Part shown: positions 4,929-11,263 of the stretch, one piece after another | Layout: each line of letters opens with the position of its first letter | Numbering within the stretch: the stretch's first letter is position 1 | Assembly (NCBI RefSeq): GCF_018324205.1 | Contig: NZ_AP023356.1 | Span: 682,001 to 746,000 of the forward strand | Origin: Actinoplanes ianthinogenes | GTDB taxonomy: Bacteria > Actinomycetota > Actinomycetes > Mycobacteriales > Micromonosporaceae | Reading direction: 5' to 3' | DNA: 64,000 nucleotides | Translations under genes and position numbers: made by a program | Notes under the pieces: generated by a model | What the model was told of the DNA's origin: nothing | Seen by the model: only the letters and a program-made list of their open reading frames with translations | The model's database searches: none

Positions 4929-5960
4929 TCAGCCGCCGGCGCTCGGCGACGGTTTCGGTTTCGGTTTCTGAGCCTTCTCCACCGCGGCGATCGTGGCCGC
5001 GTCCACGGTTCCGGTGGGCTCCACGCCCAGCGAGGTCTGGAACGACGTGAGGGCCGCGGTCAGCTCGTCGGTCCAGGTGCCGTCGACCGGGCCGGTCCAG
5101 AAACCGGCCAGTTTGAGGGTCTGCTGCACGGCGGCCGTGGACGCGATCGCCTCGTCGGCAGCCGCGCCGCCCTTGGCCTTCAGGTCGGCCTGGAGCGCCG
5201 CGTCGGTGGCCTTGTCGACGGTGCCGGTCTCGGGCAACTGGTGGGCCTTCTGCAACGCTTGGACGGCCGCGACCGTCGACGGGCCGTAGACGCCGTCCAC
5301 CTCGTTCTTGTAATAACCGGCCGTGGCCAGCGACTTCTGGACGGCCAGGGTGTAATCGCGAGCCTGGCGGAGCTGGTCCTCGCTCAGGCAGCCACCCTCG
5401 GCGAGCAGGCTCAGCCAGGACATCTCCAGGGCGACGGCCGCGGAGTTGAACCGCTCCGAGGCCTGCTTCAGGGGTGTCTGGTCGGTGACGCCCGCCTGGG
5501 CCGCGGCGAAGTCGGAGTCGGCCTGCTTGACCCGGTTGACGGTGGTGCTCTCGATGGCCGGCGGCGTCTCCTCTCCCGCGGACGCCGACGCGGAGGGGGC
5601 TGTCTCCGCCAGCTCCTTCTCGGCCTGCGCCAGGTCCTTGCGGGCGGTGGTGACCTGCTCGGCGGCGGCGATCACGTCGTCCCGCGGCTCGATCAGGTCG
5701 GCGCCGGCCTGCTTCACGTCACCGACCGTCGGCGTGGTCCGGCTGATCAGGTCGCCGTAACGGTCCAGCGCGGTGACGTAGGAGGCGCCGGTCCGGCAGA
5801 AGGCCTGGATCTGGGCGGTCAGGTTCGCCTGCGCCTCGGCCACCGCCTCCTGCTTGTTCGCCAGCCGCTTCTGGTCCACCCGCTCCTGGGCGTCGCCGTC
5901 GCCGCAGGCCGCGAGCGCGAGCAGCACCGCGATCGGCAGCACGCCGAGCCGGGCCTGCAT
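4929..5960 (-). CDS. Lipoprotein with two peptidoglycan-binding repeats
   Basis: A 343-residue exported lipoprotein (lipobox LAAC, Cys19). The middle (about 25-190) is mostly helical with Ala/Glu/Gln-rich stretches suggesting coiled coil and a Ser/Ala linker. The C-terminus has two PG_binding_1 repeats (about 207-258 and 278-329), each with the typical VDGxYGPxT or VDGTWTDEL turn followed by a ...TGTVD...T end. It ends in a Lys/Pro/Ser tail. It should be anchored in the membrane and touch the cell wall; no enzymatic domain is seen. The start lies one base after the stop of the 31-codon gene upstream, suggesting coupled translation. Confidence 0.85.
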   Translation of the reverse strand: MQARLGVLPIAVLLALAACGDGDAQERVDQKRLANKQEAVAEAQANLTAQIQAFCRTGASYVTALDRYGDLISRTTPTVGDVKQAGADLIEPRDDVIAAAEQVTTARKDLAQAEKELAETAPSASASAGEETPPAIESTTVNRVKQADSDFAAAQAGVTDQTPLKQASERFNSAAVALEMSWLSLLAEGGCLSEDQLRQARDYTLAVQKSLATAGYYKNEVDGVYGPSTVAAVQALQKAHQLPETGTVDKATDAALQADLKAKGGAAADEAIASTAAVQQTLKLAGFWTGPVDGTWTDELTAALTSFQTSLGVEPTGTVDAATIAAVEKAQKPKPKPSPSAGG

Positions 5961-6156: not shown

Positions 6157-6618
6157 ATGGCTGCTGAGACGAAGGCGCCCTGGGTGCCGCCGCGCTGGTT
6201 CGAGCTGATCGCCTGGAAGATCCACCGCGGGTACTACCGGATCACCGGCGGCCGGCGCGGCCTCTGGCGGCCCAGGCCCGGCCGCTGGGGCGCGTTCCGC
6301 CTGACCACTGTCGGTCGCCGCAGCGGCGAGCCGCGCAGCGTCATCCTCGCCTACTTCGAGGACGGGCCGAACGTGGTCACCCTCGCGATGAACGGCTGGC
6401 AGCCCGGCCAGCCCGCCTGGTGGCTCAACCTCCAGGCGAACCCGGACGCGACGATCGAGCTCAAGGACGGCCCGCGCCGGGTGCACGGGCGCGCCGCGAG
6501 CGACGCGGAGCTGCCACACCTCTGGGACCGCTGGCGCGAGCTGAACGCGGACCTCGACGGTTACGTGCGGAACCGCTCCACCGACACGGTCATCGTGGTC
6601 CTGGAACCGCGCGCCTGA
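6157..6618 (+). CDS. Deazaflavin (F420)-dependent nitroreductase family protein
   Basis: A 153-residue protein of the Ddn/DUF385 split-barrel family. Seen: LTTVGRRSGEPRSV in the first third, matching the family's TxGRKSGxxR signature for F420 or substrate contact, then the NGWQPGQPAWWLNL region corresponding to the family's PxWxxNLxANP segment, and VHGRAASDAEL. Members reduce quinones or nitro compounds with F420H2. Any specific substrate is unknown. The ATG at 6157 gives a family-typical N-terminus; the frame is open further upstream but that part runs through the upstream membrane-peptide gene. Its last 29 bases overlap the convergent amine oxidase gene. Confidence 0.85.
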   Translation: MAAETKAPWVPPRWFELIAWKIHRGYYRITGGRRGLWRPRPGRWGAFRLTTVGRRSGEPRSVILAYFEDGPNVVTLAMNGWQPGQPAWWLNLQANPDATIELKDGPRRVHGRAASDAELPHLWDRWRELNADLDGYVRNRSTDTVIVVLEPRA

Positions 6619-7816
6619 TGATCTCGGCCGCCCGTTCGGCGATCTCCGCATCGGTCCCGGCCCACAGGGTGCCGAGCCAGTGTCCGGCGAAGAGCCCGAC
6701 CAGCGTCGGGGTGCCGTCGGCCTCGGTGGCGTCCAGCCACTCACTGATCGAGGTGCGCTCGGGTCCGTGCACCCGGTAATAGCCGTGCGCCGGCCAGAAC
6801 CGCTGGTCGAACCGGAGGATCACCTTCTCCACCCGCCCGGCGCCGAGGCGGGTGAGCGCGTCCCGATGCGCCGGGGGCAGCGGCGGGTCGAAGGCGATGG
6901 TGCCCGCGGCGAGCACCGGCAGCGGCGCCGTCACGATCACCGCGTCCGCCTCGTGCTCGTCGTTGAGCACCACGCGGTCGTCCTCGATCCGGATCCGCTC
7001 GATCGCTTGGTGAAGCCGGATGTCCAGTCCGCCGGCGAGGTGCTCGGTGAGCAGGCGGTATCCGCCCACGATCCACCGGTCCCCCTCGCCGACGCCGGGC
7101 TCGAAGCCGTACCGCGCGCTGAGCCACCCCAGCGGAGCCCCCGTGTCCATCACGATCTCCGCGTCCACCAGCCGATGAATCTCGTCCGCCGTCCACGGCG
7201 CCGGATCCCGCAGCCAGTCGTCGATCACGTCCGCGATCCCGGCGTCCGGGGCGGCCACGGCCAGCCGCTTCCGGAGCTCGTCCTCGAGGTTCTCGGGAAC
7301 CGGTGGGCCCGCCAGCACCAGCGGATCGTTGAAATCGGTCACCACCACGGTCAGGCCGAGTTGTTCGGCGAGCCGGGCCAGCACGTTCTCGTCGTACTGC
7401 TGCAGCCAGTTGGCGCCCAGGTCGAAGCCGCTTCCGGCCACGTCGACGCCCGCGGTCCGCCCGCCGATCCGGTCCCGCGCCTCGAAGATCCGCGCCTGGA
7501 CGCCACGCTCGGCGAGTGTCCGGGCCGCGCCGAGGCCGGCCATCCCGGCGCCCACCACGGCGACGCGGGAATGCCCCAGGTCCGCTGCCCATCGGGCCGC
7601 TTCGGCACCCTTTTCGTACGCCCCGTGCGTCATGCCGGCCCGCGTCGCGTGCGTCGCCTCCCCGGCGATCCGCAGCCGCTCCCCGGCGGGCGCCCCGAGC
7701 GCGATCCGGTCCTGCGGCGTCCCGTGCCGGCCGATCAGGCTCCACGACCCGCGCGCCCACGGGTCCTCACCCCAGTGGGACACCGCGGAACCGAGCAGAC
7801 GAGCCGTGATCGACAT
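6590..7816 (-). CDS. Flavin amine oxidase family protein, circularly permuted
   Basis: A 408-residue FAD-dependent oxidoreductase of the monoamine-oxidase superfamily with rearranged order. The dinucleotide-binding motif VVGAGMAGLGAARTL, normally at the extreme N-terminus, lies at about 86-100, followed by FEARDRIGGR and DLGANW. The segment that normally ends these enzymes, WxxDPxxxGSxS then an AGEAT...HGAYxxG FAD contact, is instead at residues 15-70 (HWGEDPWARGSWS; AGEATHATRAGMTHGAYEKG). The protein stops just after the helix that normally precedes that segment. The ORF is continuous, so all FAD-contact motifs are present in one chain. Substrate unknown. It converges on, and overlaps by 29 bases, the deazaflavin reductase gene. 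Confidence 0.85.
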   Translation of the reverse strand: MSITARLLGSAVSHWGEDPWARGSWSLIGRHGTPQDRIALGAPAGERLRIAGEATHATRAGMTHGAYEKGAEAARWAADLGHSRVAVVGAGMAGLGAARTLAERGVQARIFEARDRIGGRTAGVDVAGSGFDLGANWLQQYDENVLARLAEQLGLTVVVTDFNDPLVLAGPPVPENLEDELRKRLAVAAPDAGIADVIDDWLRDPAPWTADEIHRLVDAEIVMDTGAPLGWLSARYGFEPGVGEGDRWIVGGYRLLTEHLAGGLDIRLHQAIERIRIEDDRVVLNDEHEADAVIVTAPLPVLAAGTIAFDPPLPPAHRDALTRLGAGRVEKVILRFDQRFWPAHGYYRVHGPERTSISEWLDATEADGTPTLVGLFAGHWLGTLWAGTDAEIAERAAEIIRRAVPGPR

Positions 7817-7949: not shown

Positions 7950-10900
7950 TTATGGGATGGTGAAGGTGCTGGTGTAGGGCTTGCGGATGGGGACGCCGCC
8001 GGGGCCGGTGCTGCTGACCTGGTCGACCGTGAGCGTGTAACCACCGGCCGCGAGCGGAGTGGCCGGCGTCCAGACCAGCGCGCCGGGAGTGGGCTCGGTG
8101 GTGACCCCGGAGACCGGCCCGGCCGGGCCGGCGACCGTTATCGACGCGCTGTAGTCGCTGCCGGTGGGCTGGATGTCGCGCTGGAAGGTGACGGTGACCG
8201 CGGAAGCGGTGGCGGCGGTGTTCACCACGACGGGGTCTCGCCAGTACTGGATGGCCAGGTGGGTGTCGGGGACCCCGGGGACGCCCCACTGGGTGGAGGT
8301 GTCGTCGACCAGCATGGTTTGCGTGATGCCGCCGTCGACGGTGACGCTGCGGTTGTTGGTGCCGGTTATCGAGCCCCAGTCCTCCACCGTCTCCCACCTG
8401 CCCCGGGTGTATTTGTACTGGACATCGGTGCCGTCGAGGACGGTGACGGTGGCTTCGTGGATGCCGTTGCCACGGTTGGTCATCGGTACCTTGCCGGGGT
8501 CCCACGGGCCGAGTTCGGTGATGTTGCCGGGGACGTACAGGGTGGCGTCCGGTGGGGTGCCGGGCGGGGCCAGGACTCGGAACGTGACGGCTACCGGGCG
8601 GACCGGGACGGTCAGGGCGGCGGGCAGGGTCACGGCGCTGCCGTCCGGGTTCCGGTACGCGAGGTGGCCGGTCACCGGGGCGGTGCGCGGGGACGGGCCG
8701 GTCGGGGTGACGTCGTAGGTGACGGTGAAGTCGGCGCCGGGGGCCAGCGAGGTGGCCGGGGTGCGCGGGGTGATCACCCAGCCGTCCGGGGCCGTCACCG
8801 AGCCGGACAGGGCGGTGATGGTCCCCGGGCCGGCGTTGTGGGCGGCCAGGACCAGGCGGCTGGTGGCGCCGGACTGGAGGCCGTCGGGGGCGGTCAGGGT
8901 CAGGTCGACGGCTGGCTGCTGCGCCACGGTGAGCGGGGTCCCGTCGTGCCGCACGGTGATCGCCTTGGCGCCGGTCACCTCGACGCTGAGCAGGTGTTTC
9001 GCCGCGTCGTAGGTGAACGGCACGCGACGACCGGCGGCCGTGACGACGTGCGGGCGGGAGACGCCGGCGAACTGGACCGTGTAGTGGCGGGTGCCGGCGG
9101 CGGGGCCGACGGTGAGCTCGGCACCGCGCTTGTTCTCGTCGTAGCGGACCGGCGTGCGGGTGTACTCGCCGGCCTGGTAGCCGAGGCCGTCGCCCGCGTC
9201 GTCGTAGACCAGCGTGCTGCCGGACGCGTGCGGGTAGGCGGTCAGGATCAGCCGGTCGGCGGGCTGGGCGGCGACGTTCGCGGCCGGCGGGGCGGTGAGC
9301 AGGATGCCGCCGGCGCGGACGTAGACCGGCATGTGATCCGGGGTCGCGGCGACGGTCCTGGTGGCCGGGCCGCGGAAGGTCTCGCCGGTGAAGAAGTCGG
9401 TCCAGGTGCCGGGCGGGAACCAGACCGGGGCGGTGGTGCTCAGGCCGGCCGCGGTCACCGGGGCGACCAGCAGCGAGTCGCCCAGCAGGTACTGGGTGTC
9501 GTGCCGGTACGCCTCGTCCAGCTCGGGCCACTGGAGGTACAGCGCCCGGGCCATCGGCATGCCGGTGTCGTAGTTCTGCCGGGCGGCCGTGTAGAGGTAC
9601 GGCACCAGGGACTCGCGCAGCCGGAGGAAGTCCGCGGCCGGCTTGCCGACCGTGTCGGAGTACTCCCAGGGCAGCCGGTCGCCGTGGTCGGAGTGCAGGC
9701 GCAGGATCGGCTGGAACGCGCCGAGCTGCACCCAGCGCAGGTACAGGTCGTCGGGCAGGTGCTTGCCGGCGAAGCTGCCGATGTCGTGGCTGACGTACGA
9801 CATCCCGATGCTCGCCTCGGCCGGCGTCATCGCGGCGGCGAAGGCGAGGGTGGCCCAGTCCGGGCGGGTGTCCCCGGTGAAGTGGACGGTGCTGCGGTGC
9901 TCGGCCCACGGGCCGGACGGGCCGGGCGTGGTGTAGTCGGGGAACGACGCCCCGATCCGGGAGAGCGAGAAACCGCGCCGGTCACGGGCGTCGCCGTCGC
10001 GGCGGTACAGCTCGTTGACCCAGCTGTCGGCGGTCAGGCCGGGCACCGTGACGCGGCTGTCGTCGCAGCAATAATCCAACCACCATTGGCGTACGCCCTG
10101 GTCTTCGAACGTCTTGTGCAGCGATGCGTAAGCCGCGGCCTGGTCCGGGTCGCTCCAGTCGAAGCGGTACGGGTTCGGCGCGAAACTGCTGGTGGCGGGC
10201 GTCAGTTTGCCTTTCGCGAGCGCCTGCGCGTCGGCGAACCGGGGGTCGTCGCCGGAGATCGCGGCGTGCACGTTGAGGGTGGCGTTGACGCCGAGCTTCG
10301 TCAGGTCGCCGAGGAACTCGTCCGGCTTGGGGAACAGGGTGGTGTTCCAGTTCCAGCCGGCCCACTGGTTCGGGGCCTTCCAGTCGGTGTCGATCACCAG
10401 CGAGTCGAGCGGCACCTTGTGCTCGGCGAACGCCGGGAGCAACCGGGTGCGGTAGTCCTCGGCGCTGTACGCCTGATATTTCGAGAACCAGGTGCCGAAC
10501 GCCCACTTCGGCGGCAGCACCGACGGGCCGGTGAGCGCGCGCAGGTCGGCCAGGCCGCGTGCGTAGTCGTGGCCGTACCCGAAGAGGTATCCGTCCTGGT
10601 AGGCGCCGGTCCGGGCGGGACGGGCGGCGACCCAGTCGCCGTTACGCAGGGCCGTTGCGGTGTCGTCGAGCAGGTACCAGCCGTCCCGGTGCAGCATCCC
10701 GGGGTGCAGTTTCAGATCCTCGACCGGGCCGGCCTGGCCGGCGTAGTAGTCGAGGCCGCGGTACCAGCCGCCGAGCGCGTCGGTCCGGGACGGATCGCCG
10801 AACGCCGGGTGCACGGTGACCGACCGGCCGCCGACGCGCAGGTCCAGGCTGGTGTTCGCGGGCGTGACCGGGCCGCTGTCCAGCCGGTAGCGCAAAGTCA

Positions 10901-11198
10901 CGGCGCTGGTGGTGACCCGCAGCTCGCCGCCGCGGGTGGAGGCGGTGAACCAGGTCTTCGGCGGGTCCCGGTCGACCGCGGTGAAGGTGGGCCGGTCCTC
11001 GAACGCGTCGTCGGCGGCGTATTCCAGCCGCAGCAGCGTGGCACTGAGCACCTGGACCCGCAGGTGACCGGCCCGCACGGTCTGACCGTGGGTCTGCGGC
11101 GCCCGGGGCGCGGCGAGCGCCGCGCCCGGGGTCACCACCAGAAGCAGTAGGAAGGCGAGCCAGGCCGCCGTCCGGGAGACGAAGCTTCGGGTCGACAC
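7950..11198 (-). CDS. Secreted GH31 alpha-glucosidase with NEW3 and CBM20 domains
   Basis: A roughly 1082-residue secreted glycosidase likely acting on alpha-glucans outside the cell. After a signal peptide (FLLLLVVTPGAALAAP) comes a GH31 N-terminal sandwich and barrel: nucleophile region WWLDYCCDD (about 375) and acid/base region HFTGDTRPDW (about 437), plus SHDIGSF and LRLHSDHGDR. Then follow the proximal/distal sandwiches, an NPCBM-associated NEW3-like domain (about 750-830), a CBM20 starch-binding domain (FRVLAPPGTPP; ITELGPWD, about 870-950) and a C-terminal Ig-like domain. I prefer the GTG at 11198, which gives a clean signal peptide; the frame is open to a GTG at 11240 but a promoter-like TTGACA lies inside that stretch. 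Confidence 0.9.
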   Translation of the reverse strand: MSTRSFVSRTAAWLAFLLLLVVTPGAALAAPRAPQTHGQTVRAGHLRVQVLSATLLRLEYAADDAFEDRPTFTAVDRDPPKTWFTASTRGGELRVTTSAVTLRYRLDSGPVTPANTSLDLRVGGRSVTVHPAFGDPSRTDALGGWYRGLDYYAGQAGPVEDLKLHPGMLHRDGWYLLDDTATALRNGDWVAARPARTGAYQDGYLFGYGHDYARGLADLRALTGPSVLPPKWAFGTWFSKYQAYSAEDYRTRLLPAFAEHKVPLDSLVIDTDWKAPNQWAGWNWNTTLFPKPDEFLGDLTKLGVNATLNVHAAISGDDPRFADAQALAKGKLTPATSSFAPNPYRFDWSDPDQAAAYASLHKTFEDQGVRQWWLDYCCDDSRVTVPGLTADSWVNELYRRDGDARDRRGFSLSRIGASFPDYTTPGPSGPWAEHRSTVHFTGDTRPDWATLAFAAAMTPAEASIGMSYVSHDIGSFAGKHLPDDLYLRWVQLGAFQPILRLHSDHGDRLPWEYSDTVGKPAADFLRLRESLVPYLYTAARQNYDTGMPMARALYLQWPELDEAYRHDTQYLLGDSLLVAPVTAAGLSTTAPVWFPPGTWTDFFTGETFRGPATRTVAATPDHMPVYVRAGGILLTAPPAANVAAQPADRLILTAYPHASGSTLVYDDAGDGLGYQAGEYTRTPVRYDENKRGAELTVGPAAGTRHYTVQFAGVSRPHVVTAAGRRVPFTYDAAKHLLSVEVTGAKAITVRHDGTPLTVAQQPAVDLTLTAPDGLQSGATSRLVLAAHNAGPGTITALSGSVTAPDGWVITPRTPATSLAPGADFTVTYDVTPTGPSPRTAPVTGHLAYRNPDGSAVTLPAALTVPVRPVAVTFRVLAPPGTPPDATLYVPGNITELGPWDPGKVPMTNRGNGIHEATVTVLDGTDVQYKYTRGRWETVEDWGSITGTNNRSVTVDGGITQTMLVDDTSTQWGVPGVPDTHLAIQYWRDPVVVNTAATASAVTVTFQRDIQPTGSDYSASITVAGPAGPVSGVTTEPTPGALVWTPATPLAAGGYTLTVDQVSSTGPGGVPIRKPYTSTFTIP

Positions 11199-11204
11199 GG
11201 AGCG

Positions 11205-11263
11205 AGCCTCTCGCCGCGACGAGACCGTGTCAATGGACACTCGTCGATTGCCGGTTCCGGAAC
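11205..11263 (-). promoter_or_regulatory. Putative promoter of the GH31 gene with GTTCCGGAAC palindrome
   Basis: On the minus strand a TTGACA (11228-11233) is followed after 17 bases by GAGGCT (11205-11210), a weak -10. The 10-bp perfect palindrome GTTCCGGAAC (11254-11263) sits 20 bases upstream of the -35. The same palindrome precedes an ATTGAC-type -35 at two other polysaccharide-enzyme genes in this window. Confidence 0.45.

Follow-up and report, generated by a model that had tools for sequence, protein, structure and literature searches.

A rotated flavin amine oxidase family protein of Actinoplanes ianthinogenes and its permuted actinobacterial relatives

Within a 64,000-nucleotide stretch of the Actinoplanes ianthinogenes genome (NZ_AP023356.1, positions 682,001 to 746,000; hereafter the window), an ATG-initiated gene at 6590..7816 on the minus strand encodes a 408-residue protein of the flavin amine oxidase family with a rotated chain. 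Both pieces of the conventional enzyme are complete, and the C-terminal segment of approximately 79 residues stands ahead of the Rossmann domain. We interpret this as a conserved natural circular permutation in which the conventional fold is predicted to be rebuilt, likely giving a working amine oxidase dependent on flavin adenine dinucleotide (FAD), and assign this reading a probability of about 0.87.

Chain order of the window protein

Along the chain, W15, G52-E53-A-T and HGAY (64-67) precede the glycines of the GxGxxG motif (G89, G91 and G94), as a first-pass annotation of this DNA had claimed for its Trp, AGEA and HGAY motifs; the Rossmann motif does lie behind them, although the numbering given for it (residues 86-100) was one residue too low. 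Membership of the flavin amine oxidase family, also proposed there, was confirmed by a match to PF01593 (Amino_oxidase) at 1.5e-51 and 176.5 bits against a curated cut-off of 19.8, and a Pfam match to NAD_binding_8 was observed at residues 87-151. The PF01593 match falls into three stretches, which along the coding strand correspond to profile positions 375-440, then 1-70, then 193-366. The conventional linear order of PF01593 is thus not kept and the protein is therefore classed as a permuted variant rather than an ordinary member. The 14 PF01593 matches in the A. ianthinogenes genome comprise five single-run loci (profile ranges 1-442, 1-442, 1-440, 1-443 and 2-442), six partial matches and the three from the window gene. 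Among NCBIfam families the window protein lay under the cut-off in all of the best 25 of 102 rows, and four more permuted proteins (E<=1e-20) reached no family above its cut-off.

When residues 1-79 were used as a lone query, 32 distinct PDB sequences were matched at E<=0.1, all 32 near the C-terminus (for example FMS1 at 436-500 of 513 and spermine oxidase at 414-478 of 494). Similarly, in a phmmer comparison with LSD2, query residues 12-74 fall behind query residues 248-343 along the target. The counterpart of residues 1-79 thus stands at the chain end in LSD2/KDM1B, LSD1, yeast FMS1 and plant polyamine oxidases, all of PF01593. With the pieces rejoined in the order 77-408, then 2-76, PF01593 scored 192.1 bits in two stretches, compared with 176.5 bits in three for the native order. 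The rejoined query, run against 296 genomes of the class, aligned with each of its four best conventional relatives in one run (1-395 of 399, 38-42% identity), and on the window gene the same query broke into 1-341 and 323-399. By the rejoined scores and the genome-wide profile matches, all conventional segments are present once, in rotated order. The open frame around the gene spans 419 codons, of which only 11 lie open 5' of the ATG, so that no conventional N-terminus is concealed there; third-position G+C is 0.90 for the whole gene and 0.89 for codons 1-79. Five readouts concur on the rotated order, and chance is excluded as its source.

Homologues, exported-type members and locus

Two protein searches were made, one with the window protein (best 120 of 1147 matches) and one with ten exported-type members (best 120 of 5375), and among the 240 homologues listed 238 were permuted, none was conventional and two had no assigned order. 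At the level of genome contigs, 27 of 31 loci were permuted and four, all cyanobacterial, were conventional; these four (L058-L061) had been taken as candidates because their query range indicated full length, but were rejected on order. Permuted loci named Actinoplanes, Winogradskya, Symbioplanes, Kineosporia, Nucisporomicrobium or Catenuloplanes number 24; a conventional C-terminus in orthologues, which the first-pass annotation had named as evidence against a functional permutation, was seen in none of the 240 listed homologues. The closest conventional relatives found are the actinobacterial 'flavin monoamine oxidase family' (L017 and the Mycolicibacterium proteins P0121-P0240), with the 38-42% identity given above over the rejoined length (P0188, 39.6% over 376 columns). 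In contrast to the permuted proteins, all 120 relatives listed with L017 as query have the conventional order.

Occurrence is patchy, with strong matches in 15 of 35 genomes of the same genus and, at family level, matches at E<=1e-40 in 43 of 354 genomes and 3 of 44 genera. An alignment of 69 members (45-84% identity to the window protein) contains invariant columns in both pieces, among them W15, G52, E53, H64, A66, G70, G89, G91, G94 and K331. Both pieces are under selection. Of nine orthologues entered, all but L032 yielded values; in all eight of these the nonsynonymous rate (dN) was lower than the synonymous rate (dS) both in residues 1-79 and in residues 80-408, as in L002, with values of 0.045 vs 0.204 and 0.112 vs 0.413, respectively.

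Beyond what the first-pass annotation described, permuted proteins make up a broad class in actinobacteria, some of its members being of exported type. When 396 genomes from across the phylum were searched with P0108, permuted proteins of other actinobacterial families matched over their full length at 35-37% identity (L093-L097), and the rejoined query added permuted L078, L083 and L091. In an alignment of ten exported-type proteins (A3), a twin-arginine was present in 10/10 and a lipobox-like Cys, judged by eye, in 8/10; the layout is these N-terminal signal-like features, then the moved segment, then the Rossmann domain. The best 120 matches of the A3 search are all permuted, and simple patterns, rather than a signal-peptide predictor, scored a twin-arginine-like motif ahead of the segment in 84 of them and a lipobox-like one in 88. 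Among the A3 matches listed, the sources give names such as Acidimicrobiales, Cryobacterium and Actinobacteria bacterium IMCC26207. The rows read begin just ahead of the strand leading into the Trp motif. GAYxxG and VVGAG lie 22-24 residues apart in 17 of the 18 rows where both motifs were located and 27 apart in the other, with L054 and L104 mislocated by the pattern.

Several individual sequences depart from this picture or stand apart. Three permuted loci at 46-49% identity (L054, L055 and L056) lie on contigs of metagenome-assembled genomes labelled Gammaproteobacteria, Klebsiella pneumoniae and Alphaproteobacteria, through either mis-binning or transfer. In Actinoplanes sp. TFC3 (G006; L014 and L051) the orthologue is broken into two parts on opposite strands (query 7-319 and 293-404), approximately 8 kb apart as if by inversion. 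P0046 from Luedemannella flava (349 residues) lacks most of the moved segment, since its Rossmann motif starts at residue 26, owing to either a start-site error or truncation. In G001, G014, G371 and G388 (L015, L016 and L057) matches are interrupted at query residues 172-175 by additional coding sequence, a variable-length insert past the start of the FAD domain. In one genome, G174, a permuted amine oxidase of this superfamily occurs together with a conventional one (C1:892388-893503 and C1:2803504-2804769).

The window gene shares a 29-base 3'/3' overlap (6590-6618) with a convergent plus-strand quinone reductase frame (PF04075; Table 1). Around 28 orthologous loci, with up to 10 kb covered on each side, no conserved gene partner was found: a neighbour cluster that appears transporter-like by eye was present at 10/28 and all others at no more than 5/28, a pattern that fits local synteny. 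The oxidase itself was recovered at only 22/28 loci by the simple gene caller used for this comparison.

Table 1. Features of the permuted oxidase gene and its neighbours (window coordinates)
Feature	Position	Strand	Basis
Whole open reading frame (ORF), permuted flavin amine oxidase, 408 residues	6590..7816	-	ORF, PF01593, AlphaFold2
Residues 1-79, chain-closing segment of conventional enzymes	7580..7816	-	PDB C-terminal matches; PF01593 375-440
Trp15 of WxxDPxxxGSxS motif	7772..7774	-	invariant in 69 aligned members
Residues 51-54, AGEA motif, predicted FAD contact	7655..7666	-	G52 and E53 invariant in 69
Residues 63-70, THGAYEKG, onset of the helix ending conventional chains	7607..7630	-	H64, A66, G70 invariant
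Residues 71-83, junction of old C-terminus and old N-terminus	7568..7606	-	GAYxxG-to-VVGAG distance 22 residues
Residues 85-95, first Rossmann strand and GxGxxG	7532..7564	-	NAD_binding_8 87-151; strand 84-88
Residues 84-408, FAD and substrate domains, ending after helix 389-403	6593..7567	-	
Lys331 of EKV motif, active-site lysine position	6824..6826	-	invariant in 69; aligned with LSD2 EK lysine
F420H2-dependent quinone reductase (neighbour)	6160-6618	+	
GH31 glycosidase (neighbour)	7950-11240	-	
Peptidoglycan-binding protein (neighbour)	4929-5960	-	

Predicted fold, function and alternatives

An AlphaFold2 model of the whole chain had a predicted local distance difference test (pLDDT) of 93.2 and a predicted template modelling score (pTM) of 0.92, with ten-residue mean pLDDT of 82-98 over residues 1-80, and thus gave no sign of the detachment of residues 1-75 considered in the first-pass annotation. 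In this model residues 1-79 form strands 7-12, 26-29 and 48-50 and helices 34-41 and 63-79, strand 84-88 opens the Rossmann part, and helix 389-403 precedes the chain end; the chain does stop past the helix that normally precedes the closing motifs, as had been claimed. Residues 1-79 are predicted to pack at the site of the chain end in conventional enzymes, where the AGEA element, which we take from the family to be an FAD contact, and the HGAY element would line the FAD, with helix 63-79 continuing across the junction into the first Rossmann strand. Amine oxidation would proceed via FAD with Lys331, which aligns with the EK-motif lysine of LSD2, the catalytic active-site lysine of the family. 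The sequence GANWLQQ is invariant in the window group whereas aligned conventional relatives carry SWIHG, and the substrate may therefore differ. The product is probably an FAD-dependent amine oxidase; of the first-pass claim of a functional permuted enzyme the permutation stands, and function is suggested by the selection on both pieces together with a lysine invariant in 69 members.

Certain points count against this interpretation. Aligners that keep sequence order pair only residues 79-408 with conventional structures (template modelling score by query length 0.60-0.70 in the alignments listed), so residues 1-79 are left unplaced on the C-terminal part of LSD1 or monoamine oxidase (MAO) and their predicted position draws on model confidence rather than superposition. 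A conventional relative, P0128, modelled poorly (pLDDT 63.3 from 30 sequences) and only its strand and helix order was therefore considered, and co-variation between residues 1-80 and 84-408 (235 sequences, effective number 136, five permuted fragments or odd-length proteins left out) was noisy and was not used. Four of the ten exported-type members carry another residue at the active-site lysine position (Arg in L078, Thr in L097 and L104, Val in L098), and some members may therefore not be oxidases; a pattern search of the best 120 A3 matches found Lys in 86 and Thr in two, with the position left unlocated in 32. Judged on these replacements, part of the exported branch may carry out other chemistry or none.

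The lack of superposition leaves room for the N-terminal segment to be a leftover outside the fold, with the protein working, if at all, without it, but this is highly improbable given that all eight orthologues show dN lower than dS over residues 1-79, that W15, G52, E53 and H64 are invariant, and that the segment is modelled with high confidence. Loss of amine oxidase activity, with the flavin fold serving another oxidation or a non-catalytic role, is a less remote prospect, as it accommodates GANWLQQ in place of SWIHG, the exported-type members lacking the lysine and the absence of conserved gene neighbours; it nevertheless appears unlikely in view of the retained FAD motifs and the invariance of Lys331 throughout the window group. 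An assembly error, chance frame or fused fragment confined to the window locus can be given practically no weight and is refuted by orthologues, since the rotated order recurs in many species and assemblies, and a second copy of the segment was not found at the C-terminus.

Origin and significance of the permuted class

Origin was addressed with trees of 79, 74 and 67 rows, built by a quick method with segments in common register, the second without five long-branch conventional rows (L018, L019, L020, L023 and L077) and the third without 13 rows, eight of them permuted and five conventional, from a set of 80 representatives. We favour a single old event in Actinomycetota because the cut is shared and the linker is near-constant in cytosolic-type and Tat (twin-arginine translocation)/lipoprotein-type members. 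We lean slightly towards the fuller view that a single ancient permutation founded a large unrecognised actinobacterial class, hidden under the name 'monoamine oxidase', that has since divided into cytosolic proteins (Actinoplanes and kin) and Tat-exported lipoproteins; in the latter, the FAD-binding piece from the old C-terminus would lie between signal peptide and Rossmann domain. The competing possibility, which we regard as less likely, is that the rotated order evolved at least two times independently in actinobacterial amine oxidases, the conventional ends being close together and one loop break-tolerant. The free trees, with 5, 4 and 4 order changes, of which starred branches force 2, 1 and 2, speak for several origins and against one, as does a conventional group that adjoins the cytosolic permuted clade with Shimodaira-Hasegawa-like approximate likelihood ratio support of 97 in the 67-row tree; the expected intermediate with the segment at both ends was also not flagged among the 240 listed homologues. 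Against several origins stand the identical cut and near-constant junction distance across groups, and a single clade of all permuted rows was not rejected by the approximately unbiased test with either 74 rows (p = 0.661, likelihood 8.48 above the free tree) or 67 rows (p = 0.439, 3.70 below it). By the proposed route, a conventional gene would have been tandemly duplicated and the copies fused in frame, after which a new start would have arisen in copy one, just ahead of the strand leading into the Trp motif, and a new stop in copy two, past the helix preceding the moved segment.

Natural circular permutation is well known in other proteins, and MAO, LSD1 and polyamine oxidases belong to the most thoroughly studied flavoenzymes. 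In a full-text literature search, none of the papers listed described an amine oxidase with a permuted chain, an absence that is weak since subscription papers and bioRxiv lay mostly outside the search; the accessible part of one paper (PMC4432964) contains a mention in its reference list only and does not describe such an enzyme. According to the accessible part of PMC4408115, circularly permuted forms of LucY, an FAD protein, kept cofactor fluorescence, but in contrast to the natural permutation here these were engineered in the laboratory from a tandem gene whose copies were joined by a 6-residue linker.

If the interpretation is correct, the annotation 'monoamine oxidase' conceals a topological class, and a loop of the MAO fold is revealed as able to accept new chain ends. 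Such proteins would offer a natural template for permuted biocatalysts and sensors. The effect of chain order on FAD loading or Tat export would become testable, and permuted and conventional relatives within one genome would allow direct comparison.
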